This document shows positions 12,002 to 63,160 of a stretch of 64,000 bases of DNA, one piece after another (positions within the stretch are counted from its first letter, which is position 1; each line of letters opens with the position of its first letter). The position numbers and the translations under genes are program-made. The notes beneath the pieces were generated by a model. It saw only the letters and a program-made list of their open reading frames with translations, ran no database searches and was not told the origin of the DNA. The DNA comes from Parietichytrium sp. I65-24A (Eukaryota; Sar; Bigyra; Thraustochytrida; Thraustochytriidae): NCBI GenBank assembly GCA_012862575.1, contig BLSF01000008.1:434001-498000 (forward strand). Direction: 5' to 3'.

Positions 12002-13270
12002 ATGAAGCAAGCTCTCGCAGCTGGGCTGGTTTTGCCTCGTACAGGGAGAGCAAAGGCAGGGCGGGGGCACTTGAAAGCCGGCTGGAGAGCATTCGGTAGC
12101 ATTATGGGAGACTCGAATGCTGCGGGCAAGTTTGTGGCCCAGAGCGTGAGCGCAGCGCCAGAGCTGGCAGCTCCCGAGAGAACGGCCGCTGAGCTGGGAG
12201 GAGCGACCTGGGAGCTCCTTGGGAACACTGTGAACCACACTTATGCAAAGAAGAGCTTTGAGGAAATGAAGGCGCGGTTTGCGCAAGATGCCGCGGACAA
12301 CGTACCGTCTGCAGAGCACCCGAGAGGCGTTGTGGTGGAGGACACTGTCACATTCAGACTACTGGCGAAACTCGTGCGAATTGGCGATGTTGTTCTCGAG
12401 ATTGGGTGCTCATACGGCAAATGCACAGAGTGCATAGCTCGAGCCAACCAAGCGCCGGAAAAAATCGTAGCGATCGACGTGTCTGAGCATTGCTTGGAGA
12501 ACGCGAGGACTCGCGTTCCTGGAGCCAGATTCCATAAAATTAATGTTCTCCGAGAGTGGACGGAAGTGGCGTTCATGATGGACTCGATACGACAAGTGGA
12601 CCAATCTGATCTTGTTATTATGTGCGATATTGGGGGCAATCGCGAGCTTGAGTCCGTGGTGTCTGTGCTTCCTTTTCTGTTAGTGAATTTGAAACCTAAA
12701 TTGTTGCTTGTGAAAAGCGAGCAGGTGTACCATGCAGGGGTCAAGCTCGGCGGCTTGAACGATGAACACTGGGTGCAGCTCCGGACCTTAGCAAAGGATG
12801 CATTTATTGAGCGACGCAAGAGGGAAGCCAGTGACTTGGCGAAATTCAAAGCTCAGCAAGAGCCTCTCAGGCTGAATCCGCAGGGACTTCCGATTTGTAG
12901 ATACCATAATTATGACGTAGGACGGGGATGTCTGCGGTACAAGGACCAGGTCAACTCGTGCGAGTTCGACCACGAGTATTGTCACGGTAAGTGAACAGTT
13001 CGTACAGATTCAAATTTGGTTTTTGGTCTTGGTTTTTACTAACGGCACACCCGCCAACACACAGCTTGTGGAAGTCAGGGGCACAGAGCGTTTGAATGCA
13101 CGTTTCCCGGTCGCGAACAAAATTTGGAGATGTTTCTTGTGGAAAATAGCCAACAATCAGACAGGTTCCCGTGGCCTCCTGAGGCAAGGTCCATACATCA
13201 ATCTCACTTTGCACTTGTCGGCGAATACTTGCAAAAGCAACAGAGTCTCGCGAGCGGCGAAAAACCTGAG
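12002..13270 (+). CDS. SAM-dependent methyltransferase with CCCH and CCHC zinc fingers, two exons
   Basis: Exon 1 is 12002-12986 and exon 2 is 13065-13270, joined across a 78-nt intron (phase 1), giving 396 residues. Exon 1 encodes a Rossmann-fold methyltransferase with SAM motif I 'VLEIGCSYGKCTE' (~137-149) and acidic motif II 'VAIDVSEHCLENAR'. It ends in a CCCH finger of spacing C-x10-C-x9-C-x3-H. Without splicing, translation would stop six bases into the intron. With splicing, the product continues into C-x2-C-x4-H-x4-C, an exact zinc-knuckle pattern starting 'CHACGSQGHRAFEC', then a ~50-residue tail. The two zinc fingers imply RNA binding, so an RNA-modifying role is likely (inference). 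The first 34 residues, before a second ATG at 12104, are basic with no acidic residue and could be a mitochondrial presequence. A poly(A) signal at 13342 supports the extended 3' end. Confidence 0.85.
12987..13064 (+). other. Spliceosomal intron (78 nt) in the methyltransferase gene
   Basis: The donor is GTAAGT at 12987, immediately after the phase-1 base G12986. A canonical branch point TACTAAC lies at 13037-13043, followed by a C/A-rich stretch and acceptor ACACAG ending at 13064. The in-frame TGA at 12992 lies inside the intron. Removal keeps the frame open for 68 further codons and completes a CCHC zinc knuckle across the junction, which is strong independent support. Confidence 0.88.
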
Positions 13271-20639: not shown

Positions 20640-22057
20640 TACTGGTAATGTAAATTTTATGCTCACTATTAAAGCAGTAAACTCTGTTTCTGAACGTTCT
20701 GACCGTGAACATCTACTAGAAAAGCCAGTTTGGAGTCTATAGGAACTCGGGCGCATTTTACCTATCTCGTTGCACACCTGGATTTGTGTCTTTCACATCA
20801 AAGCTTTCGAACCCGATGATCTGACCCATTCCGAGAGATGCCTAGCACCTGATACCAGCGTGTTGCCATGCCAGTTTGCCGCAGGTTGCCACGACGAACG
20901 AAGACGAAAAAGACAGTAGATTACACTATCGTGAACTGCACTGTCAATGCCAGCCAGTCCGAGTCACAGCGAGCGCTTCATCCTGCAGCTTGCTAGATGT
21001 CGTATGTAGAACAGTGAACGTCCGATCCACTGGCACACTGTTGAATCAATTTGGATACAAAAGCCCCAGTACGGCTTTGACAGTGAATACCAGTGTCACC
21101 ACACTCTGTGGCGATGCGACGAAAACAAAGTCCTCCCTTGCACCGCGGGCTAACCAGTACCGGTACTGTACTGACAGTGAGTACACGTTTCCACGAAGCC
21201 AACAGCGGGAACCTGAAAACAGCCAGTCAGTTGCCGGCTTCGCATAGGCTTCGCAATGCGCAATGCGACACCATTTTTGATTGACATTGTGAATTACTGA
21301 TTTTAAATTTATAATCAAAATAAAACAAACTGTAAGCTTAAAATCAAATCTCATTCTTTACTTGCTGCTTTTGCTGCACCGGCACATTCATCAACCATCC
21401 TTTCCACAAACTGCAATCAGTGCTCAATGCCTCAGACACTAACACTCCAACTAAGCTTCTTACCGCCACTGCCACGAAAGGTGTGCGAGTAGTCTCTTCC
21501 AGACGATACCATAGTCCCGATCTTTATCGTTTCATAGCCGCGTCTAGTTGTCCCGCACCGAGCTCCTCCAGAAGTCTAAGCTTGCTATGCTCTGCTATTG
21601 ATAAATGCTAACAGGGCTACTTCGGTCTACTGTGCTATCACTTCTGGAGTATACGTGCTATGCTCATGTTAGTGCAGTACGGCTATGAGTTGGGTATGGT
21701 CTCGGGTAACAGTAAAGGGATGTCGAAGTACAAAGCGTAACCTATAAGTTGACAGAGAGAGAGGGAGAGAGAGAGAGAGAGTTGGCGTTCGTTGTCACCG
21801 TGACAGACATTCACAGACTGACAGTGAGTCAATTGGACATGTGAACAGGCGTAGCCGAGTCTGCAGACACGAGACACAAGACACACGCAAACGCAGAAAC
21901 GAAGAGTGACCGAGGAGCGCCGAGATTTCTTCCTTCTTTGAAAGGGCCTGGCACTCTAGGACAGGCAAAGTCACAAGCACACGGGCTTGCAGGGTGGTTT
22001 TTGCGGAGCTTTAGCAGAGCGGCAGGTTGAGGTTGGGGTTGAGGTTGGGTGCATAGA
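20640..22057. other. Intergenic region, 1.4 kb
   Basis: Contains the ATTAAA-like 3' flank of the protease (about 20668), an A/T-rich segment near 21290-21350, a (GA)n tract at 21757-21783, and GGTTGAGGTTGGG units at 22025-22050 just before the kinase ATG. No frame looks protein-like and no RNA gene is recognised. Confidence 0.45.
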
Positions 22058-38495: not shown

Positions 38496-39735
38496 AGTAG
38501 GTAGCATGTATGTGGCTCTAAGAAGTAAAAGATGGTATCCAGTCTTTACCATCTGGATCACCAGTGCATCGTATGCTCAACTATCTGGTACAGCACGTTG
38601 TATATATATATGTAAGTCTTGAATCTCCTTGACAGTTTCCTTTCGCGGTCGTGTTTTCGAGTTACGTTGCCTGAAGTAACACAGTAACGCAGTCAGTTAC
38701 ATTTAGTGCACGACTCAGAATCCAAACGATCGAAGTTCCGCACCGCCACTTTAATGTGTAATAACTTTGTGATTTCTCCATACCAGCTTTTCTCGAGCTT
38801 TGTTTCTCTCGCAGCTCGACACAGCTCTCTTCAACGAGACCATTCACAGCTCACTCGGACTCCACAAGCAAATCCATCTCGCGCGAAAAGATATTCTGGT
38901 GGCACTTGTGCCGATGCACAATTTCCAGTGGCAAAGAGTGGATGGGCAGGCAGACTGGCAGGCAACGCGGCAATAGATTTGTGTGCACTGCAGGTGGCAA
39001 ATAGCAACAGGCTACACTTTCACCGTGTACGAGCATCTTAGAAGTCTGGCTACAACTCTCCGCGCCACACACGTGCACGACCTCCTTCCCTCCCTTGTGC
39101 AGCTGTCGAGGGAAGAGACTGTGCATACTGTGCATACTGTGCATGTGACAGACAATTGCGCTTCGCAGAGTGCGAAATTTTGAGACGTCGAAAAGTGATG
39201 GCGCGAAGAAGAGGAATTTGCAGCTCGAGCGCCGCAATGCAGCTTTGCATTTTTGAAGAGAAGAGGTCCAGTTGCGGCGCCGCGGCCGCGTAAAAGAGGA
39301 TAGGGGATATTAGTGAGCATGCATTTCGTGCACACGTGGCCACGATGCGACGAAAAAAGAAGAGAGAGCGAAAGTGGATTGGTGTTCAATGAAAACTTCA
39401 TTCAGTAAACTAATATTTATGGCTCTGCGCCAAAACAATGCCACCTTGCTGTCTTAGTGCACACAGGTTCGTCGTGTAGGTCACGATCAAGTAAGAGCTC
39501 GCGCCACACATTGTGTTCAAGCAAACTATGTCTAGCAGCATGTATGGGTTGAGTCAGGTCAGTCTGCCAAGTTAAGTGACTACAGATGCTGGGCTACCAT
39601 TGCTTTTCACAGAGTTTGCGCGGTCCACTGGAGCAGCAGCCGAGCGGAAGGCAGACCGGAAACTCGGAAGCACTTGACGAATCTGTACATCGAGCAAGGA
39701 TAAAGGTGTGTTTAGAGGCAAACACTGGTGGCCAA

Positions 39736-41829
39736 ATGTTTCGGCATGTCGTCGTCGGGCTAGCGTGCGGTGTGATAGCGGCACAGGGAAGCTTTCACGT
39801 ATCGCGAGCTGAACGCAAGCTGACTGTGACTACTGGAGTCACATCGGAACAACTCGTGGCGCAGATCCTGGACAGTTCTATCAGCTCACTGGTCGACGTC
39901 TCGGATGCTGCGATTGCTTGCAACTCCCTAGCATATGCCAGCTTCACTGCACTCGACAGCGCAAATGCCATCTCTCAGACCGCCGACGAAGGAGTCATTC
40001 TCTCCACGGGGGGTGCGGGCGTGCTGAGCCAAACTAGTAACGACAACATGTGCACTACCACAGACTTTGGCACAGACCTCACTGATGCAGACCTTGAACC
40101 TTTTGCAGACTCGACAATGCACGATGGCTGCGTGTTAACTTTCGGCCTGAAATTCTCTGCTTCTGCCCCGTACTTTGGCAAAATGCTCTCTTTAAAGTAC
40201 ATGTACGTCTCCGAGGAGTACAACGAGTACGTCGAAAGTGAGTTCCAGGACTTTGCTGCTGTTCTCGTGGACGACGTTACGGAAGGAGTCTTCCGGGACG
40301 TCGCGGCAATCAATGGCTCACCTCTTGGAGCCCAGACCGTTAACCAGGACAGCAACCAAGCTCTCTATGTTGACAATAGCGCGTTATCGTCTTCCACGCC
40401 AAACACTGAATACGATGGACGCACCATACTGCTGGAATCCGACGCATTTGCTGTAACGAAAGAAAGGGTTGTGTCCTTCAAAATTGCGGTGGTCGACGTT
40501 GCGGATGGTGTTGGAGACTCTGCATTCATCATCAAAGGTGGCAGCCTTGGAGTGTCCCTCACGGCAACGACTTCAGCTCCAACTGCAACACCAACTGATT
40601 CTCCAACAGTGTCACCAACTGATTCTCCAACAGTATCGCCAACTGATTCTCCAACAGTATCACCCACGGACTCTCCAACAGTGTCACCAACTGATTCTCC
40701 AACAGTGTCACCAACTGATTCTCCAACAGTGTCACCAACGGATTCTCCAACAGTGTCACCAACTGATTCCCCAACAGTATCGCCAACTGATTCTCCAACA
40801 GTATCACCCACGGACTCTCCAACAGTGTCACCGACTGATTCCCCAACAGTATCACCAACTGATTCTCCAACAGTGTCACCAACGGATTCTCCAACAGTGT
40901 CACCAACTGATTCGCCAACAGTATCGCCAACTGATTCTCCAACAGTGGCACCAACTGTTTCTCCAACTGCAGCACCAACTGTGTCGCCAACTCCTGCCCC
41001 AACTGATTTTACTGATTGTACTGGTGCAGCAATTCTTCTTGCCTTCGATCAGTCGCAAAGTATCACCTCCAAGGAATTCCTTTTGCAGCAGAAGGTTGTG
41101 GAGAACATGCTTGATTTCATGCCGATCGGAGGCCAGACGGGAGTCCAAGTTGCTGTTTCACGATTTGGAATCTCTGTGAAGGACCTGGTATCGGTTGACA
41201 CCGTCCAGACTGGCTCTGTGGAGGCAACCGTTCGCGCCCAAGTGTCAGCGTTCTTTTCGAACCCAGCGGCACGTCAGAAATATACTGACTTTACGAATCT
41301 GTTCAACTCAGAGCACGGTATCAAGCTTGCAGAGTCTGCTGAGCGACCAAGTATCATCATCTTGTCGGATGGTCAACCATACACCAAAAAGTACAAGGGA
41401 GGAAAGAAGTCAGTTGCCCAAGCTTGCAAGTCAGCGAACGCTTTCAAGGCAAACTTCCCAAGTGCCAAGATCCTGTGCTTCCAGTCCACCTCCAAATCCA
41501 AATCGGCATCGTTCTTCAAGTGTGCTTGTGACGCTCGCTGGCTTGCAAACGACCCAAGGCAAGACTACTCTTCCGAGGCAGTGTCCACTGAGATGGTGCA
41601 AAATCTTGTGTGCTCTCCGAGCGTTCAACAGGCCAATCCATGTGACGCAATCAACAGCCTAAATCGCAACACAAAAACCCAGCGAGCTCTTTGCTTAAAG
41701 GTTGCGAAAAACTTCCGCGGATTGGACAACGACAGCTCCAGCGCGTTCACGTCCGTACTGCGCAAGCAGTGCTACTGGAAGAGCAAGTGCCGCGTCTATG
41801 ACAGATACGCTTCGCTTTACAGCTCTTGA
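39736..41829 (+). CDS. Secreted choice-of-anchor L domain / PTDSPTVS-repeat / VWA protein
   Basis: 697 residues from the ATG at 39736. The frame continues 50 codons upstream, but only this start gives a signal peptide ('MFRHVVVGLACGVIAAQG'). Residues ~25-280 match the choice-of-anchor L domain: 'GVILSTGGAGV' early, 'YMYVSEEYNEYVESEFQDF' centrally, and 'YDGRTILL' then 'FKIAVVDVADGVGDSAFII' at the end. That domain is known mainly from secreted bacterial proteins. Residues 286-405 are 15 PTDSPTVS octapeptides, a likely O-glycosylated stalk. Residues ~425-620 form a von Willebrand A domain with MIDAS-like D-x-S-x-S ('FDQSQS') and 'IILSDGQ'. A Cys-bearing tail ends the protein. Probably a secreted or cell-wall adhesin; I see no C-terminal membrane anchor. 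Confidence 0.85.
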   Translation: MFRHVVVGLACGVIAAQGSFHVSRAERKLTVTTGVTSEQLVAQILDSSISSLVDVSDAAIACNSLAYASFTALDSANAISQTADEGVILSTGGAGVLSQTSNDNMCTTTDFGTDLTDADLEPFADSTMHDGCVLTFGLKFSASAPYFGKMLSLKYMYVSEEYNEYVESEFQDFAAVLVDDVTEGVFRDVAAINGSPLGAQTVNQDSNQALYVDNSALSSSTPNTEYDGRTILLESDAFAVTKERVVSFKIAVVDVADGVGDSAFIIKGGSLGVSLTATTSAPTATPTDSPTVSPTDSPTVSPTDSPTVSPTDSPTVSPTDSPTVSPTDSPTVSPTDSPTVSPTDSPTVSPTDSPTVSPTDSPTVSPTDSPTVSPTDSPTVSPTDSPTVSPTDSPTVSPTDSPTVAPTVSPTAAPTVSPTPAPTDFTDCTGAAILLAFDQSQSITSKEFLLQQKVVENMLDFMPIGGQTGVQVAVSRFGISVKDLVSVDTVQTGSVEATVRAQVSAFFSNPAARQKYTDFTNLFNSEHGIKLAESAERPSIIILSDGQPYTKKYKGGKKSVAQACKSANAFKANFPSAKILCFQSTSKSKSASFFKCACDARWLANDPRQDYSSEAVSTEMVQNLVCSPSVQQANPCDAINSLNRNTKTQRALCLKVAKNFRGLDNDSSSAFTSVLRKQCYWKSKCRVYDRYASLYSS
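40591..40950 (+). repeat. 24-bp coding tandem repeat, 15 units, with 144-bp higher-order period
   Basis: Exactly fifteen 24-bp units encode PTDSPTVS. Synonymous variants show units 2-7 and 8-13 carrying the same order of third-base and ACT/ACG/CCC differences, so a six-unit (144-bp) block was duplicated. Because 24 is divisible by three, all six frames are open across the array. Confidence 0.93.
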
Positions 41830-52978: not shown

Positions 52979-55900
52979 ATGAACTGGGCGGACGAGGTGG
53001 AGAAGGACGATGCGGACGCCCTTCCGGAAGTCAAATTCCCCGCCAAGCTCAAGAAACAAGCGGCCAATGCGCCGCGAGCGTCGCACGAACCCAAACCTGC
53101 TGCGCCACCCAAGGCATCAGTATGGCAGCAGCCGCCGTCAGCCGCGAGGCCGGTTCCAGGACCGGGAACCGGGCCGAAGCCTGGGCACGGGCCTGGGCCT
53201 GGGCCGGCGATGCACTCGTTGAAAGGCCGGGCGGCGTCCGGTGCCGCGCAGGAGCCGCAGGTAGCGAGCGGCGGCAGTGGTGGCAATGGTGGCAGTGGCG
53301 GCGCAGCGTCTAACAAGTGGAAGAATTTCTCGCAGCAGGCGCAGCAGCAGGAGATGGAGAGGCAGCAGCGGATAGCGGCCGCCAGCTTTCACAGGGGCGC
53401 AGGCGATTTCCATGCGGGACCCCGCGGCAACTTCAACGACTTTGGCCCCCGCGGCGGCGCTCATGGCGGCCACGGGGGACACGGCGGACACGGCGGTGGC
53501 TGGCATGGAGGACACGGGCAAGACGCGGGGCGGCCGAACGGAGCGTGGGTGGACCAGAGCGGGCCGTCCAATTGGAGAAGTGCGCCTCCACCGCGGGCAC
53601 TTCCAGCGCCACATGGGGCACCGGTCGCGCAGCAAGGTGCCGCGCCGCCGCGCGGACCCCCTGGGCCTGCGGCTGCGCACGGAAACTTTAGCTCGCCGCG
53701 ATCAAATGCTGCGGACATGCCAATGCAGAGAAGAGACTCGCGCGCGTCGGTCAGTTCAACCAGCACTCACGGGTCGGTACGCATCCAAAAGAACCCGAAC
53801 GCACCTGCAAGTCACAGCGCAGCGCCAGTCGTGAAAAGGGAGCCCGCAGCCCCGCCGCGCCACCAGTGTTTTGGGGTAGTGACCTCTCTCAAGGACAAAT
53901 TCGGTTTCATGCAGGTTGTGTCGGAGCCGCAGAGCTCAGATGTGTTCTTTCATTTCGACGAGGTGGCCAGGAGTGGAAGCTTCGACCCCAGTAAGCTACA
54001 GCTTGGGAATGAGGCGGAATTTGATCTTGTAGTTGGGCAAAACAACAGGCTCAGTGCCAGTCGGGTCAAAATATTAGACAAGGGCTCCATAGCTGTAGAT
54101 CAAGTGGTTGAGGGCAAATCTGGACTCTGCGGAGTTGTGATCTGTGACACCTTTTTCACGGCGCGGGGGAGGCAACTCGTTCAATTCCGGTGGCCCTGGG
54201 GCGAATACTGGTGACTTGGGACGCTTTGCTGACTATTTTGACGCAAAGACAAACCTCAGGCATTGGACTGGGAGGATCGTGGTGGTCCCCGAGGATGAAG
54301 TCGATGATTTGACCGAGCTGGTGCCGGGCAACGTCAAGGCTGCGGTTGCAGACGGCTCTAGCATCTTTTGTTTTGCGACTCGAGGAATCTCGAAATCAGC
54401 AGGTGGGAACGTCTCGAAGGAGCAGGCAGAGCCGAAGGATGTCAACAAAACAGCTCCAACGGGGGATGGTGCAGATGACAAGGCAGACGATGGCACAGCG
54501 GATAATGAGGAGGACAAAAAATCCGAAACTGCGAGTGTGTCGAGCAAGCCAAATAGCTCTCGCTCACAGAACCAGCGCTCTCATCGATCCTTAACGCCAA
54601 TGCGTGGAGACGTGGTCAAATTCGATGTGGGACGAGAGCTGGCCACTGGCCGACTGCACGCCATCAACATCCAGATTATAAAAAGTGGAAAATCGCGTAC
54701 TCAGGAGATTGTTCGGAAGGAGATCGAGAAGAAGGGGCTCAAACGTGAACGAGGTAAGGTTGCAACTCTTGCGCCGAGCAGTCAGCTAAGCTCTCTGGGA
54801 AGTGTGGAGTGCGAAGAGAGAAGCGAGCGCGTTCTCTTCGCTTACCGCGACTTGCCGGAGAAATTTAGACCCAAGGCTGCCCAGCCAAAATCACAAGGCC
54901 CAAAGAAAACTTCAGATTGGCGCCAGCCCCCTGATATCCATGGTCGAGGTCGATCGAACTCAAACGCTGACGGTCTTCGACTCGGCTTGGAGCTCGAGTT
55001 TTATGTCGTCAGTGATCCGCTCAACCCAGAAAAGCTTATCGCGTACGACATCAAAGAACTCCCTGCTGGAACCGTCCAGTTCGAAGAGCTGCTCCTTGAA
55101 AAAGCGCGAGCGATTGTTGTACAGACTTTCCGTTACCCAAAGCGCCACGGCTCTGCTGCTAGTGGTCACGACAATCGCGACAGGCCGATTGCCAGGATCA
55201 GGCTTTTGGAGGTCGACGAAAAGCTGAAGGGTTGCAAAGCTCCAAAGTTGCAGCCTCTGCCTCATGCAGATGCCTCCAAAAGAGGGAAGGACTCTTCCAA
55301 CCATACGTCACAGGAGGATTCCAGCAAGGATGTTGTAGAAACGGACGCAAAGGAGGAAACTTCTGGCGAGGAGCAAACCTTTGAATTTGACATTACCGTG
55401 GAAGATGTCGTGATGCCTGGACCAAGATCTCACGAGAATGACATCGTTGCTCTAGACGTGCACAAGATGAAGAGAACTGGATTGCTCGTTCCCCGTGCTG
55501 TACAGCTGGTGGAGCCTGCCGGAGAGAAGGAGCGGCGGGAATCAGACCCAATATCTGTCTGGCAAGGTAAATGCAAGAGGGAGACGGGCGTTGTCAGCAA
55601 CGTGCGCGACTCTTTCGGGTTCATCGACTGTGCCGACCGCCCGGGACAAATATTTTTTCCTCTAAAGGAAGTGATTGCTATTCGTTCTGTCGAGCCAGCG
55701 CATGGCGACTTCAAAGCTCGAAGGTCTCTCCGAGAGGAGCTTGTGAAGGAAGGCGATAGTGTGTCGTTCCAAGTTGATCTCGATTCATTCCACGGCAACT
55801 CCAACACTTCTTCTGCGGCTTCGGTGTCTTCCGGTGGACGTGGCGGGGGCAGCGTTCGCTCACTGCAGAATCATACCGACCGCCGCACTGTTGCTGTTCG

Positions 55901-58382
55901 CGTGATGAAAATTGACCAGATGCCGAAGGATATTGTGATTGCCGAAAAAGTGGTTGGGTTTGTTTCAAAGACGCCACATTCCGCCAAGTTCGAGCCGCGA
56001 AAAGTTGGTAACCGTCGTACTCTGCCTGGCCAAACGCAAAACTCGTTTCAGCAGCAGCAGTCGCATTCTTCTGGAGCTGACACTGGCATCATCCAATGCG
56101 AGCCAACTGCATTTATCGCGCCTGACTTGTTCGAAGCTTTGAAGAAGCTGTCGCAAGATCAACTGACCATTGAGGACAAAAAGGGTGGAAGTGTAGTGGC
56201 GTCTCAGATTGAGATATTTCCTGACCCAAATTTTTATCATGGCAAAGGCAAAAAGAATCAGAACAAGAGCAGAAAGGGCAAGAGTGACGGTTCTCAGGAG
56301 TCGGACCACACCGCCTACATGCGCGTGCCAGCGAACTACGAGTTTGTGCTCCGCGATTACTGTGCGTGGCTCGGCCTCCGTGCAATCTTTCACAATGGCG
56401 AGGATAACCACGACGGTGGAGTCATTGTCAAAAAGCGCGTTCTTCAAGGAAAGCTTGCTCCCCGTTCCAAGAAGAAGGACAAAGGCGATAACAAGCATCC
56501 GTCCGCGGGAAAAAGCGAGGATGCTGGTGAACACTCTGAAGAGCAGAATGACTCTGCGTCAGTAGAGGAGGGGTCCACGCAAGAGTCTGAGGCTGACGCG
56601 GAGCATGGCGACTCACCGAAAGTGACAATGCTCGCTTCTTTTGGGCAATCGGCAGTGTACGATCGCAAACATCTTCATGCTGGGGACAAGGTGGAGTTCA
56701 CATTGTGCCTTGATCGCAAGACCATGCGCCACGTGGCACATGGTGTCACGATCCTGGAACAGGCGAAAAAGAAGCCTGGTCCAGTGAAGCGTCGCCCAAA
56801 CACAGAGACCGGCGTAATTGCTGCGATCCACGAGCAAGGACACGGTTTCATACAAGGTGCAGATCGCATGGAGCGCATGTATTTTCGCTTAAGCGATTGT
56901 GAAGGGGCATACAAGAGCAGTGTTCAAGCTGGGGACGAGGTGGAGTTTCGCGTTCAAGACGCCAAGAAAGGGAACCGGGCTGTGGCCATTCGCTTTCTTC
57001 CTAAAGGCACGATAGTATTGGATGACCCGGTGATGAATCCTGAGACTGGAGAACAGGAGAAATTCCGCGGTATCGTTCTTCGAGAACCCAAGAGGTCGGG
57101 CGATTCGCGCAGCAATAAGTGGAAGGAAGACCATCCTAATGCGCTCAAGATCAGTCAGCTCTTTGCCCCGCAACACATGTTTGGGCGCCTCGTTGACAGC
57201 GACACAATTTTAGAGCCGACACAGCCAGAGGAGGAATACGAGAAGCCGGACTGGCGGCGCGCCAAGGAGCTCCACAATATGGTGGAAAAGTTCTCCACTT
57301 CCAAAGACAAAATTTGGAAAGTTGACACTTCTTTCACAAAAGGAGAGCTCAAGGAAATAGAGCGCATCGCACGTAAAGACAAGCTCTTCTCTGGGTGGTT
57401 TGATGGTGCACTGGTAATTGCGCGGCATCGAAGCGTCATGACTCAATACCGGGATGGCAAGCTGGTCGAAGATAGCAGCGATGCTTCCAAGGACGACGCC
57501 GGCGACGACGCAAAGACTGAAAACGCTGCTGATGGAGAGGATGAACAGTCAAAAGAAGATGATGAAAGCCAGCCTTCTGGCGAGGGGGAAACCGCAAAAA
57601 GAGTTAGTGCTGAGGGCGACAACGACGAAGATAATGACGACGAAGAGGATGGTGGTGCTGCGACTGCGAAGACTGACGCTGCAGAAGATGAGAAACCGCG
57701 TTCGATGCGATATCTCTTTGCCGTCAGCGACGTACTTCAACCCGAGCGTTCGGAGGAAGCGGGAGAGCGGAGCGGCAGCAGTGAGATGTTCGTGCCCCTT
57801 GTTGACGATGCCGTCGAGTTCACCCTGTGCATCAATCGACTGACGAAGAAAATTCGTGCGACTAATATCTCCCTGCTCAACTCTAACGCAAAGATCTGCC
57901 GTGGCGTCGTGGAAGGCGTCGTCTCCGAGCGCTTTGGCTTCATCCGACCTCTCGTTGCAGGGAAGGGAGCCCGAGGTGATGGTACGGATGTTGTCGATGA
58001 GAACTTTCGTCCTGGAGCCGGCGGCAGAGATGGGTCCTTGCGTTTCGAGCGCAGTCAAATGCGAGAAAATATCCATCTCAACGACGGCGATGAAGTGGAG
58101 TACCTTCTCATCACAGATCGCCACACAAAAGAAGCGAGGGCAACTCGGGTTCGTTTGGTGAAGAGAGCTGTTCAGGAACCACCATCCAACTCTGCGCCTC
58201 CACAACTGAATCGCAACGCGATCAAGAAACTTGGTGGTGCCGCTGATGCAGTAGCGGTCCAGAGATTCCACCTTGCAAAAGGTCCGGACGGAACGAAAGG
58301 GTTCCCGATTGGACGTGGCAGGAACTTGCCTCTGAGAACAAAGCTCCGTGTTACGGCCAAAGAATTTAAGCCGAATTTCTGA
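52979..58382 (+). CDS. Very large multi-cold-shock-domain (UNR/CSDE1-like) RNA-binding protein with one frame break
   Basis: The first frame (from ATG 52979) has 'MNWADEVE', a Gly/His-rich disordered region with 'HGGHGG' repeats, and a canonical cold-shock domain at ~294-360 ('GVVTSLKDKFGFMQVV', 'DVFFHFDEV'). It stops at 54214. The second frame overlaps it and runs to 58382 with at least three more cold-shock domains: 55564-55800 ('GVVSNVRDSFGFIDCA'), 56791-57010 ('GVIAAIHEQGHGFIQGA') and 57889-58160 ('GVVEGVVSERFGFIRPL'). Recurrent 'GDxVEFxLCxDRxTxxxxA' half-domains are interspersed. Together ~1800 residues, more than twice human CSDE1. The +1 shift can be placed at the T5 run 54152-54156; a GT..AG intron 54137-54248 is also frame-compatible. 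UNR-like proteins bind single-stranded RNA and control translation and mRNA decay. Confidence 0.78.
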
Positions 58383-58690: not shown

Positions 58691-59395
58691 TTAGCGCTCC
58701 ATCTCCTCGATTGCCGGGGCACCTTTGGCAGCGACGACCTTCTTCTCAGCAACTGTGTTGGATGTTGGCAGACGTCGCGGAAAACTGTTAGTGCATCTTT
58801 TCGAAGGGGTCTTCACTCCTCTCCGCTAGCTGGTCAAAAACTTACAGGCCAAGTTGCCTTTGTACTCCCCACAGCAGCAGGCGCAAGGATCCATAATAAC
58901 GTTCCCGGAGCAGCATTTGCACTACAATTTTCATGAAAGCAGTAAAAAATTAGAAAATTAGAAAATTTCGCCCCCTCATGAGCAGAGGTTGACTCCGTCA
59001 AGGCATCTACGACTTACCATGCAATAGCTGAAGCGGCAATCATCAAAGTCACAGCACTTTGGCCTGTGGCAGAACCCGCAGCAGCACCTGTCCGGGTCGT
59101 TCATGTCCAATGCGGCTGCATCGTTCTCTGCACAACATTCACAACTCAGCATCACCCAGCATCACTTTCCCTCCCGCCAAACATTCTCCACTTACTGCAA
59201 CAGCAGATCGCAAACGTCTTCCCGCAGCATCCCTGGTCCAGGCAGTCCGGCACCAAGTCGCAATAGCCTGCGCAACCTTCATCGTCAGCCTCCAAACAAC
59301 AAACAACAAACAACAAACAGCAAATACACGGTCCGCGTCCGACTTGACAGCTTCAGACGCCACAACTCACAGCATCCGTTGCAGCACACCGGCAT
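58691..59395 (-). CDS. Five-exon cysteine-rich small protein (114 aa, 26 Cys), unknown family
   Basis: Read on the minus strand, five short exons join without a frame conflict: 59371-59395, 59196-59267, 59018-59127, 58846-58921 and 58691-58752 (25+72+110+76+62 = 345 nt). Introns are 103, 68, 96 and 93 nt with donors GTGAGT, GTAAGT, GTAAGT, GTAAGT and acceptors GCGCAG, GTGCAG, TTGTAG, ACACAG; the last has an ACTAAC branch point. Intron phases are 1, 1, 0, 1. The product starts 'MPVCCNGCCYCD', contains 'CCCGFCHRPKCC' and 'CACCCGEY', and ends in a Cys-free Ala/Lys/Glu tail 'APAIEEMER'. Cys is 26 of 114. No signal peptide, so a cytosolic metal-binding, metallothionein-like or palmitoylated protein is possible; I do not recognise the family. 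Confidence 0.75.
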
Positions 59396-60997
59396 CTTTC
59401 CCTCTTCTCTCTCTCTCTCTCTTTATTGATTCGGCCTGCGTCCACCTGTCCCTTATTCGGCTCCTCGTTTCGCGTGTCTCGTTTCTCCTTTCGCGTTGGG
59501 TTTGTTGGGTTTGTCCTGTTTGCAATGGCAATTTGATGTCATTCGTCATCTTTCCGTCAGTCAGTCGTAGGGTGGATTAGAAGAGCGCTAGTAAGGCCCA
59601 CCTCGCGGCTCCCAGGGCATCCCAGGGCGACCACGCAACTACTAGCTAGGCTGGTAGGGATCGCCTAGTCCGACTGGTTGATGCTCTGTAGAGTGGAGCT
59701 TAACGAGAGCACTATGTGTTTGGGGATAGTGCTGGGTAGACGAAGTGTGTGAGGAAAATGCCGACCGCGCGACTTCTACCGGATGTGGTAGAGTCGGTAC
59801 GTACCGGTGCTCGCCAGCGCAGTAGATGGTGTAGGATGGCCTTACGGATGGGAGGGAGGATGTGACAGTGTGCGCTGTACCTATCAACTAAGGGTAACTC
59901 TTAAAAAGGTCATAGCAAGCGCTTACGACTCCTGCTGGCGTCATGCTATATAATTCTTTTCGTTTTATGTTCGTATTGTTTATTTATTCGCTCAGAGGCT
60001 CTTTCTTTCTCTTTTTTATTTTAATCGTCTTGGACGCAGCATGTTGTGGCTAAAAGGTGACTAGGCGATGATGACGGCGATGACGGCAGCCTGACATGAC
60101 ATCCTCCAGCAGTGAAGATTGCAGCCATGCTCGACAAAGCCGCACCAAGGCTCTCCGATCCCACGAGAGCCGGAGCGCTAAGGCGCTTTACCCTGAGTAC
60201 CTAATGCCGCTCAATCGTAAAAGAGACAAGGTGTGCACCATGAACACTTGTTTGTTCGCGAGCAAAAGAACAATCCGGTAACGGTCACCTTTTCAGGTTG
60301 GGGAAATGACATTGTGATTGATTTTGAGAGAGATGGACATTGGTCAATAATACATTGACACGGACAGTGAATGAAACGTCGTGATTATGATCAAGATGAG
60401 GAGGAGGGCTACAGGACGATGGGCTGGTTGCTGCGGTCAACGCTGATGGCATTGGGAATCGGAAGAAGTCGTGCAGAGACACATAGCTGGGGGAGAGTAA
60501 TGTAATGAATGTAATGAAGGCAATGAATGCAATGAATGCAATGTTCATTGAATGTAATGAGAGAAGGAGAGCGAGAGATATAAGAGATAAGAGATAGGAG
60601 ATAAGAGATAAGAGAGAGCGCGGTGGCGCGAATGGCTCGCATCCTCATTCGTTCGTTCCGCAGTTTGAGTTGTCGAGAGGTGCCGCCGGCGCGCAGTCTT
60701 CCTCCCAAGCCCATCCGACCAATTGGAGACACGGGTGACGCAGGCACTTGAGAGTTTTATACATTCTCACTCACTCTCCTTGGTCGCTCAATTGGTTTCG
60801 GGAAGGCTTTTCCTTTTGATCGACTTTGTGCTTGTCGAGCGGGGCAGAGGAAATTGGAATCCCGCGCGGCGTGCGAGTTGTGAGGTGCAGCGCTCGTCGC
60901 GCATCGCTCGCCGTTTGAACCGTCGCCGGACTTGGCCGCGAGTGGGTTTGGTGGTTCGCACAGCGGCCGTAGACGCCGCGCAACTGCTCCCGCCAAG
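59396..60997. other. Intergenic region between divergent cysteine-rich and EGF-protein genes
   Basis: 1.6 kb holding both promoters. A (TC)n tract (59403-59422) lies just upstream of the cysteine-rich gene. AATG-type repeats lie at 60500-60560 and GATAAGA repeats at 60575-60617. No coding gene seen. Confidence 0.45.
60500..60617. repeat. AATG-type and GATAAGA-type microsatellites
   Basis: Imperfect (GTAATGAAT/GCAATGAAT)n followed by (AGATAAG/AGATAGG)n. Confidence 0.75.
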
Positions 60998-63160
60998 ATG
61001 AGGTGGAGGTTGTTGTTAGCGGCCACTGCTGCCTTGTGGCTCGGCGTGGTGGAGGCCTGCTGCGAAAACAAGTGCAGCGGGCATGGCTACTGTGGAAGTA
61101 GCTGCATCTGCACATGTCACGCACAGTGGACCGGGGCAGACTGTTCGAGGAGACAGTGCCCAAGTGGCCTGCAGTGGGTCGGCGATGCGAAGGCCACCGA
61201 CTCGATACATACCGTATCGGCAGTGTGCTCGAACGTCGGCAAGTGCGACACGTCCACGGGGATTTGCACATGCCAATCGGGGTTTGACGGAATTGCCTGC
61301 GAGCGTCTTGCATGCCCATCCAATTGTAATAATCATGGAAGATGCATTAATCTTAAAGATGCTGCACTGGAACGCGACGACCGAAATTTTTTCCGGTCAG
61401 TCACTTATACAGGCTGGGATGCGGGAAGAATTTACGGCTGCATGTGTGACCTGGGCTGGACTGGGTATGACTGCTCACTCCGCGAGTGTCCCAAGGGAGA
61501 CGATCCGCTCACCACCGGGCAGGTCGACGAGGAGCAGATTCTTTCATGCCAGTGTGACACCACCTGCACAGGTACATTCTACCTGTCGTTTCGAGGTGAA
61601 GTCACCGCTGCCATCTCTCACTCGGCATCAGCTAGTCAAGTAAAGGCTGCACTTGAGGAGCTGAAAACAATTCGCACGGTTTCAGTGTCAAATGGAGGAA
61701 GCGTTTGCACCGACAGTTCCGCAGAGACGACCACCATTGTGTTCACTCATGACCATGGCGATCTTCCTCTCATTCGCGTCGCAAAAGATTCGCTTGTGAC
61801 ATCAGGAACCACCACGAGCTTGTCCATTGCAAGGAGTGTTGACGGAACTCGCGAGAACACCTATTGCAGCGGGCGAGGGTCATGCGACTTTAGTACTGGA
61901 GAGTGCTTGTGCGAAGCTGAATTCGAGCCCAGCGACGCAGACGGAGCCTCGGGAGTCGTTGGCGACTGCGGGTACCAAAGTTCCTCAGTTACGGACTGCC
62001 CAAACTCTTGCAGCTCACATGGAACTTGTTCCGGGGGAAGTTCTTATACTTGTACTTGCGACGAGGGATACCAGGGATTTGATTGCTCAGACAAGGTTTG
62101 TCCAAAGGGAGTGGCATGGTTTGCGGAGCCTGGTATAACACTGCCTGGTCTGGTGACAGCAACGCAGAGTTCCACGACTGTCACAACGACTTCGGACTTG
62201 ACCAACTACGTGATGGCCGGGGACACCATGGTAATTGATGGCAACGAAGTGACAATCAGCTCTGTTACATCGGGCACCGTGGTGCTGACGACCGCTTACA
62301 CAGATTCCACAGTTACTAATGTTGAAGCGTTTGCACACCCTCTTACGGCGCATCATTTGGTGGAGTGCTCTGGGAGGGGCAACTGCAATCGTGGCACTGG
62401 GCTCTGCAACTGCATGTCTGGCTTCACCGGCTCAGCTTGCCAGAAGACAGTCTGCCCGTCCGACTGTAGCGGCAGGGGCACGTGCCTTACCAACGAAGAG
62501 TTCGCGTCTACGACGGAGAGCAACGGAGAAGCGACTTCTTACACTTACGGAGAAGATCCCAGCAATCTCGCTACCTGGGATCACGACAAGCTGTTCGGGT
62601 GCAAGTGTGACAAGGCTATTTACAAAGGTGGAATGTATGATTACACCGGGCATGACTGCTCGCAGATCTCATGCCAGGTAGGCGACGACCCTGGTGTTAT
62701 TGGAGTTGACGAGATACAGAGCTTGACTTGCTCTTTGAGCTCGGGAACGTTCACGCTTACTTTCCGCCAAGAGACCTCTGAGGCTATTGACTTTGACGCC
62801 ACTGCAAGTGAGCTGAAGAGCGCGCTGGAAGAGGTGCTTACCATCGGTACCGTGACGGTTAGCATCACTGGCTCTTCAAGTGCGTCGGATCCCATCTGCT
62901 CTGGAGGTACGGTAGAAACCATGATCACATTCACATCTCGGCACGGGGACCTTCCGGACATGGTCAGCTCTGACGCAAACGCGGTTGTCGCTGAGGATAC
63001 GGCTGGGACCAAAAAAAACTACGAATGCTCCTCCCATGGACTTTGCGCACGTGATACGGGAGTGTGCGAGTGCTTCAACGGCTACGTGTCGAGTGACGGC
63101 CAAGGGAATGTCGGAACAAGAGGCGACTGTTCGGCCCGCGATGCCCTTTACTCTGGATAA
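60998..63160 (+). CDS. Secreted EGF-repeat (tenascin-like) protein with a recurring ~100-residue beta module
   Basis: 720 residues from the ATG at 60998, starting with a signal peptide ('MRWRLLLAATAALWLGVVEA'). Six or so EGF-like units ('CSGHGYC..C.C...W.GADC') are interspersed with linkers of the form 'CPKGDDP'. Two copies of a ~100-residue module occur (about 170-275 and 570-680). Each has 'GTF.L.FR.E.......A.....K.ALEE', a central 'I.TV.VS', and 'I.FT..HGDLP' near its end. This EGF-plus-module layout is common in predicted secreted proteins of stramenopiles and some other protists. Likely role is in the extracellular matrix, cell wall or ectoplasmic surface, by ligand or carbohydrate binding (inference). 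No C-terminal membrane helix or GPI signal is visible. Confidence 0.88.
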   Translation: MRWRLLLAATAALWLGVVEACCENKCSGHGYCGSSCICTCHAQWTGADCSRRQCPSGLQWVGDAKATDSIHTVSAVCSNVGKCDTSTGICTCQSGFDGIACERLACPSNCNNHGRCINLKDAALERDDRNFFRSVTYTGWDAGRIYGCMCDLGWTGYDCSLRECPKGDDPLTTGQVDEEQILSCQCDTTCTGTFYLSFRGEVTAAISHSASASQVKAALEELKTIRTVSVSNGGSVCTDSSAETTTIVFTHDHGDLPLIRVAKDSLVTSGTTTSLSIARSVDGTRENTYCSGRGSCDFSTGECLCEAEFEPSDADGASGVVGDCGYQSSSVTDCPNSCSSHGTCSGGSSYTCTCDEGYQGFDCSDKVCPKGVAWFAEPGITLPGLVTATQSSTTVTTTSDLTNYVMAGDTMVIDGNEVTISSVTSGTVVLTTAYTDSTVTNVEAFAHPLTAHHLVECSGRGNCNRGTGLCNCMSGFTGSACQKTVCPSDCSGRGTCLTNEEFASTTESNGEATSYTYGEDPSNLATWDHDKLFGCKCDKAIYKGGMYDYTGHDCSQISCQVGDDPGVIGVDEIQSLTCSLSSGTFTLTFRQETSEAIDFDATASELKSALEEVLTIGTVTVSITGSSSASDPICSGGTVETMITFTSRHGDLPDMVSSDANAVVAEDTAGTKKNYECSSHGLCARDTGVCECFNGYVSSDGQGNVGTRGDCSARDALYSG

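Follow-up and report, generated by a model that had tools for sequence, protein, structure and literature searches.

A probable five-exon gene for a cysteine-rich, possibly metallothionein-like protein in Parietichytrium sp. I65-24A

Introduction

Metallothioneins are defined, in the part of PMC7216689 available to us, as cytosolic proteins of at most 300 aa with less than 10% aromatic residues and 15-35% Cys. Among protists, the ciliate cadmium metallothioneins (CdMTs; MT family 7a, such as Tetrahymena MTT1 and MTT5) measure 99-181 aa among the rows listed in the excerpted PMC4862169, contain about 24-30% Cys and are built from modular repeats; TtheMTT5, for example, has 24 Cys in 99 aa. According to the same excerpt, the reading frames of the Tetrahymena MT genes are free of introns, a trait that has been explained as suiting fast induction (PMC4862169). 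Among the thraustochytrid and labyrinthulomycete papers listed, judged by title, no metallothionein or similar cysteine-rich protein was found described.

Clustered cysteines are also found in proteins that are palmitoylated. Cysteine-string-type anchors carry acylated Cys-rich stretches, and in cysteine-string and PLAC8-type membrane proteins Cys runs lie near Tyr and Phe. A third comparison is offered by the I-mfa domain of the MyoD family inhibitors (MDFI, PF15316), with about 80 residues and clustered Cys; we take that of MDFIC to be the closest palmitoylated domain to the protein considered here. The action of MDFIC on PIEZO channels needs palmitoylated Cys in its C-terminal helix, as stated in the accessible part of PMC12626003. 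Literature searches on PLAC8-type cysteine-rich stramenopile proteins returned nothing, and those on I-mfa in protists gave nothing relevant, judged by title.

The protein discussed below, of 114 aa, is of similar size to the ciliate CdMTs and has CC, CCC, CXCC and CXC clusters in common with them, its Cys content being 22.8% against their 24-30% (PMC4862169, in its excerpted part); it is likened to them by size, composition and cluster types. It differs from them in that modular repeats of the kind noted in that excerpt are not evident, in its 7% of aromatic residues, and in its gene, which has four introns where the Tetrahymena genes of MT family 7 have none.

Structure of the gene

The locus lies on the minus strand of a 64-kb stretch of DNA, the whole of which was analysed and is referred to as the window. 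Between 59395 and 58691, five exons joined through four GTRAGT...YAG introns form a frame of 345 nt, rebuilt by script, which runs from ATG to TAA and gives a product of 114 aa with 26 Cys. The exons measure 25, 72, 110, 76 and 62 nt and the introns 103, 68, 96 and 93 nt; the donors are, in order, GTGAGT, GTAAGT, GTAAGT and GTAAGT, and the acceptors GCAG, GCAG, GTAG and ACAG.

Exon 1, 59371..59395, minus strand: 25 nt; MPVCCNGC plus one base; A at -3 of the ATG
Intron 1, 59268..59370, minus strand: 103 nt; GTGAGT...GCAG; in-frame stop; 36% T
Exon 2, 59196..59267, minus strand: 72 nt; encodes YCDLVPDCLDQGCCGKTFAICCC
Intron 2, 59128..59195, minus strand: 68 nt; GTAAGT...GCAG; in-frame stops
Exon 3, 59018..59127, minus strand: 110 nt; encodes NDAAALDMNDPDRCCCGFCHRPKCCDFDDCRFSYCM; in-frame alternative acceptor at 59115
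Intron 3, 58922..59017, minus strand: 96 nt; GTAAGT...GTAG; in-frame stop; CTAAT twice, branch-like
Exon 4, 58846..58921, minus strand: 76 nt; encodes CKCCSGNVIMDPCACCCGEYKGNLA
Intron 4, 58753..58845, minus strand: 93 nt; GTAAGT...ACAG; in-frame stop; CACTAAC branch motif
Exon 5, 58691..58752, minus strand: 62 nt; encodes AEKKVVAAKGAPAIEEMER and the stop; Cys-free tail

In each of the four introns the incoming frame meets a stop, so that the splicing of all four is needed. Moreover, since the introns of 103 and 68 nt are not multiples of three and in-frame stops are present, the protein is impossible without splicing. The exons have a GC content of 57% and the introns one of 39-50%. An earlier note on this DNA had proposed a five-exon cysteine-rich gene here, and its coordinates, donors, acceptors, frame, 114 aa and 26 Cys were all reproduced from the sequence; the CACTAAC of intron 4 has its branch A about 35 nt 5′ of the acceptor.

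Evidence for a coding locus

On both strands of the whole window we looked for chains with a GTRAGT donor and a YAG acceptor at every intron, an intron length of 50-129 nt and no exon longer than 400 nt; a chain had to have at least four introns and at least 90 codons between its ATG and its stop. The search gave eight chains, every one of them at the cysteine-rich locus. Among 1797 Markov-3 control windows, six contained any such chain and five a chain of at least 114 aa, while none contained one with at least 20 Cys, the maximum being 14.

Codon choice was assessed with a synonymous-codon score that ignores amino-acid content and takes the long ORFs of the window as its reference. The CDS scores 10.8, a value reached by none of 2000 background draws encoding the same protein (-5.6, sd 3.4), and same-protein draws from the codon usage of the long ORFs gave 5.0 (sd 3.0); the synonymous codon choice of the CDS is like that of the neighbouring genes. 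The score is still 10.8 when an out-of-frame stretch, 53000-54140 (10 stops), is excluded from the codon table. The Cys codons comprise 23 TGC and 3 TGT, in a window whose usage is 73% TGC. Of the TGY trinucleotides in the CDS, 26 are in frame and the two remaining frames have 4 and 5; for the full codon log-odds, the corresponding values are 15.6 versus -12.4 and -4.2.

It could be argued that this is not a gene and that GTRAGT and YAG sites lined up by chance over a Cys-rich reading, and the six control windows do hold a chain of at least four such introns. Nevertheless, this is highly improbable in view of the codon choice, the concentration of TGY in one frame, the lack of any control window with at least 20 Cys, the in-frame stops in all four introns and the presence of branch motifs. 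Because the chain locus stands alone in the window, and because of the Markov control and the synonymous codon choice, the cysteine-rich locus is very probably a real spliced gene. The hidden gene postulated in the earlier note thus finds support in splice structure, codon usage and the chance control.

The gene model is not unique. An exon 3 starting at 59115 keeps the frame and makes the product 4 aa shorter. Another exon 3 acceptor, at 59087 and in another frame, is used in four of the eight chains, which have 13-18 Cys and synonymous scores of 3.6-4.9, and two of the lower-scoring chains (4.9 and 4.1) begin at an ATG at 59549. The gene might also be real with a different last exon, beginning at acceptor 58784 and read in another frame, in which case the product would have 155 aa, 28 Cys and a different, basic tail. 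There the frame is equally open and the synonymous score is 11.6 versus 10.8, but the codon log-odds are -2.3 over 60 codons versus 6.3 over 19 for the exon that starts at 58752, and the AG of 58784 sits immediately after CTAAC, which is the intron 4 branch motif. We consider this form improbable, and on the full codon log-odds an exon 5 starting at 58752 is preferred; the matter is independent of the functional readings of the protein.

Layout of the protein and search for relatives

All 26 Cys of the 114-aa protein fall within residues 4-86 and are followed by a Cys-free tail of Ala, Lys and Glu. From residue 4 to 49 they are arranged as CC (4-5), CCxC (8-11), a single Cys (17), CC (22-23), CCC (30-32) and CCC (47-49), and from 52 to 86 as a single Cys (52), CC (57-58), a single Cys (63), CxCxCC (68-73) and CxCCC (82-86); five CxxC pairs are present. 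In composition, the protein has 22.8% Cys, eight Phe plus Tyr (7.0%; 7.9% counting one His) and no Trp. Seven of the eight Phe/Tyr residues lie in or beside Cys clusters, as in FAICCC, GFCHRP, CDFDDC and FSYC. Kyte-Doolittle means over 19 residues peak at 1.08, or at 0.48 with Cys set to zero, and by this measure the protein has no hydrophobic leader or membrane span. Its self-alignment score of 66 was equalled 4 times in 200 full shuffles and 3 times in 200 block shuffles, which is suggestive only of a possible weak internal repeat.

At E up to 10, the protein had no match in Pfam, NCBIfam, PHROGs or PDB, with the reservation that HMMER filters may lose Cys-rich matches, which bears on the Pfam and NCBIfam negative. 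Within these four libraries, the statement of the earlier note that no named family has this pattern is borne out. Pattern scans matched 9 stretches in IMG/VR and 25 in prokaryote genomes (GTDB), none of them confirmed as relatives, and tblastn against phages at E up to 0.1 yielded no relative of the protein. As the genome collections searched were viral and prokaryotic, the lack of a relative there is hardly informative for the native lineage.

One lead came from the run CCDFDDCRFSYCMCKCC beside CCESSDCLEICMECC, at the junction of exons 3 and 4, with a local likeness to the I-mfa domain of the form CCxxxDCxxx(x)CMx(x)CC. Full shuffles attained the pairwise score of 102 in 8 of 2000 cases, shuffles restricted to the first 90 residues in 58 of 2000, those that kept the Cys positions in 27 of 2000 and those of runs in 23 of 2000; the motif had been picked after the similarity was seen. 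A profile of four rows (two variants of MDFIC, MDFI and MDFIC2) scored -17.1, equalled in 97, 69 and 43 of 1000 shuffles across three controls. With the composition correction left off, the score was 38.2, and 30, 78 and 15 of 1000 shuffles attained it. The Pfam MDFI model finds a true I-mfa domain at 3.8e-43 and the 114-aa protein not at all. Membership in the I-mfa/MDFI family was therefore rejected, the score lying above most shuffles and not clearly beyond chance.

Possible functions

With 114 aa, 22.8% Cys and 7.0% Phe plus Tyr, the protein falls within the composition limits set out in the available part of PMC7216689. Its CC, CCC, CXCC and CXC clusters are among the types tabulated for Tetrahymena CdMTs in the excerpt of PMC4862169, and there is neither membrane span nor leader by Kyte-Doolittle. 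The best reading, held tentatively, is that of a cytosolic metallothionein-like metal-thiolate protein. The gene would be expressed to give a small soluble protist protein, presumably cytosolic, in which several d10 ions of zinc, copper or cadmium may be bound by clustered thiolates and so be buffered or delivered; a fixed disulfide fold would be lacking. Against it stand the four introns, as opposed to the intron-free reading frames of the Tetrahymena MT genes in the same excerpt (PMC4862169). The protein also has no Pfam match at E up to 10, nor any relative in which its Cys spacing is conserved, and no metallothionein family signature appeared at that threshold (0 Pfam and 0 NCBIfam models). 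In addition, the Phe and Tyr among the Cys clusters hint at a hydrophobic core. Classical metallothioneins are not known to have such aromatic residues among their Cys clusters. The metal buffering put forward in the earlier note is supported in so far as the composition fits the published limits (PMC7216689, in part).

The aromatics placed between Cys clusters and the five CxxC pairs would also agree with a folded zinc-cluster protein or adaptor, in which Cys, the single His and Asp residues would bind structural zinc in a small number of fixed positions, with a small aromatic core and with partner binding in place of metal buffering. A multi-module fold might likewise produce a weak internal repeat such as that scoring 66. 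On the contrary, no Pfam family or PDB sequence matched at E up to 10, and CCC runs fit classical zinc fingers awkwardly; we regard this explanation as unlikely. Ranked below it, and also unlikely, is a peripheral membrane protein palmitoylated at several positions, MPVCCNGCCYC being its acylated N-terminus. The Cys pairs right behind Met-Pro-Val, the CC and CCC runs and the absent leader peptide would agree with such a protein. Cys runs near Tyr and Phe are shared with cysteine-string and PLAC8-type proteins, but a J-domain or PLAC8 match is absent (Pfam, E up to 10). Charged residues are scattered across the Cys region, there is no strongly hydrophobic stretch, and the I-mfa of MDFIC, the lone palmitoylated Cys-rich domain compared, was not matched clearly better than by shuffles. 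Multiple palmitoylation, the other suggestion made from the sequence earlier, is possible and without specific support, and the I-mfa of MDFIC failed the profile test. The weights given to the metallothionein-like, folded-zinc and palmitoylated readings arise from composition and cluster types that fit, set against the introns and the interspersed aromatics. A further proposal, possible and rather doubtful, is that the protein represents a family new to the libraries searched and confined to one protist lineage, with Cys clusters interleaved with aromatics, namely an independently evolved metallothionein-like protein with a hydrophobic core.

Genomic surroundings

The window contains many long uninterrupted ORFs. 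A search that admitted only GTRAGT donors and exons no longer than 600 nt, and would thus miss any gene whose exons are longer or whose donors differ, found 22 chains of at least two introns and at least 80 aa, all at the cysteine-rich locus. As no other locus in the window gave even a two-intron chain within these limits, the four-intron gene stands out there. Chains with at least one intron number 65; of the seven other loci among those listed, four are antisense to long ORFs (one partly) and the remaining three cut into a same-strand long ORF. The nearby features are as follows.

54144-58382, plus strand: 1412-aa cold-shock-domain protein (CSD 2.2e-17, CSDE1 4.3e-17; Pfam), convergent with the cysteine-rich gene
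59406..59421, minus strand: (GA)8 tract just 5′ of the ATG of the cysteine-rich gene, known from sequence only
60992-63160, plus strand: 722-aa EGF-repeat protein (EGF_2 2.3e-23, five stretches; Pfam), divergent from the cysteine-rich gene

By eye, the N-terminus of the EGF-repeat protein resembles a signal peptide. Neither ARAGORN nor Rfam (gathering thresholds) found anything across the window. The (GA)8 tract before the ATG perhaps belongs to the 5′ UTR or core promoter. Tracts of (GA)5 or longer number five in the window, at 59421-59406, 8753-8742, 8723-8696 and 8026-8011 on the minus strand and 21765-21780 on the plus strand, and they are perhaps a core promoter element. One of them lies about 280 nt upstream of an ORF that looks, by eye, phosphatidylinositol-kinase-like.

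Elsewhere in the window, a long PTDSPTVS repeat occupies roughly 40550-41000 of the plus strand (estimated), within a 749-aa ORF at 39580-41829; repeats of this kind occur in stramenopile surface proteins. Such traits of the window as were noted agree with a stramenopile source. A possible plus-strand intron of 78 nt, 12987-13064 (ACG/GTAAGT ... ACACACAG/CT), taken from a candidate-intron table dominated by chance, lies at the end of an ORF named by eye as methyltransferase-like and is followed by about 68 open codons.

Implications

Protist annotation readily overlooks small multi-exon genes whose exons measure 25-110 nt. The present gene escapes simple reading-frame searches and, as the lone multi-intron locus detected in 64 kb, may have been missed by gene callers. 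The finding is a modest one, a single gene that is an orphan in the libraries searched, with a plausible and common type of function. If real and expressed, it would add a Cys-cluster protein to the labyrinthulomycetes, for which, judged by title, the papers listed describe none.
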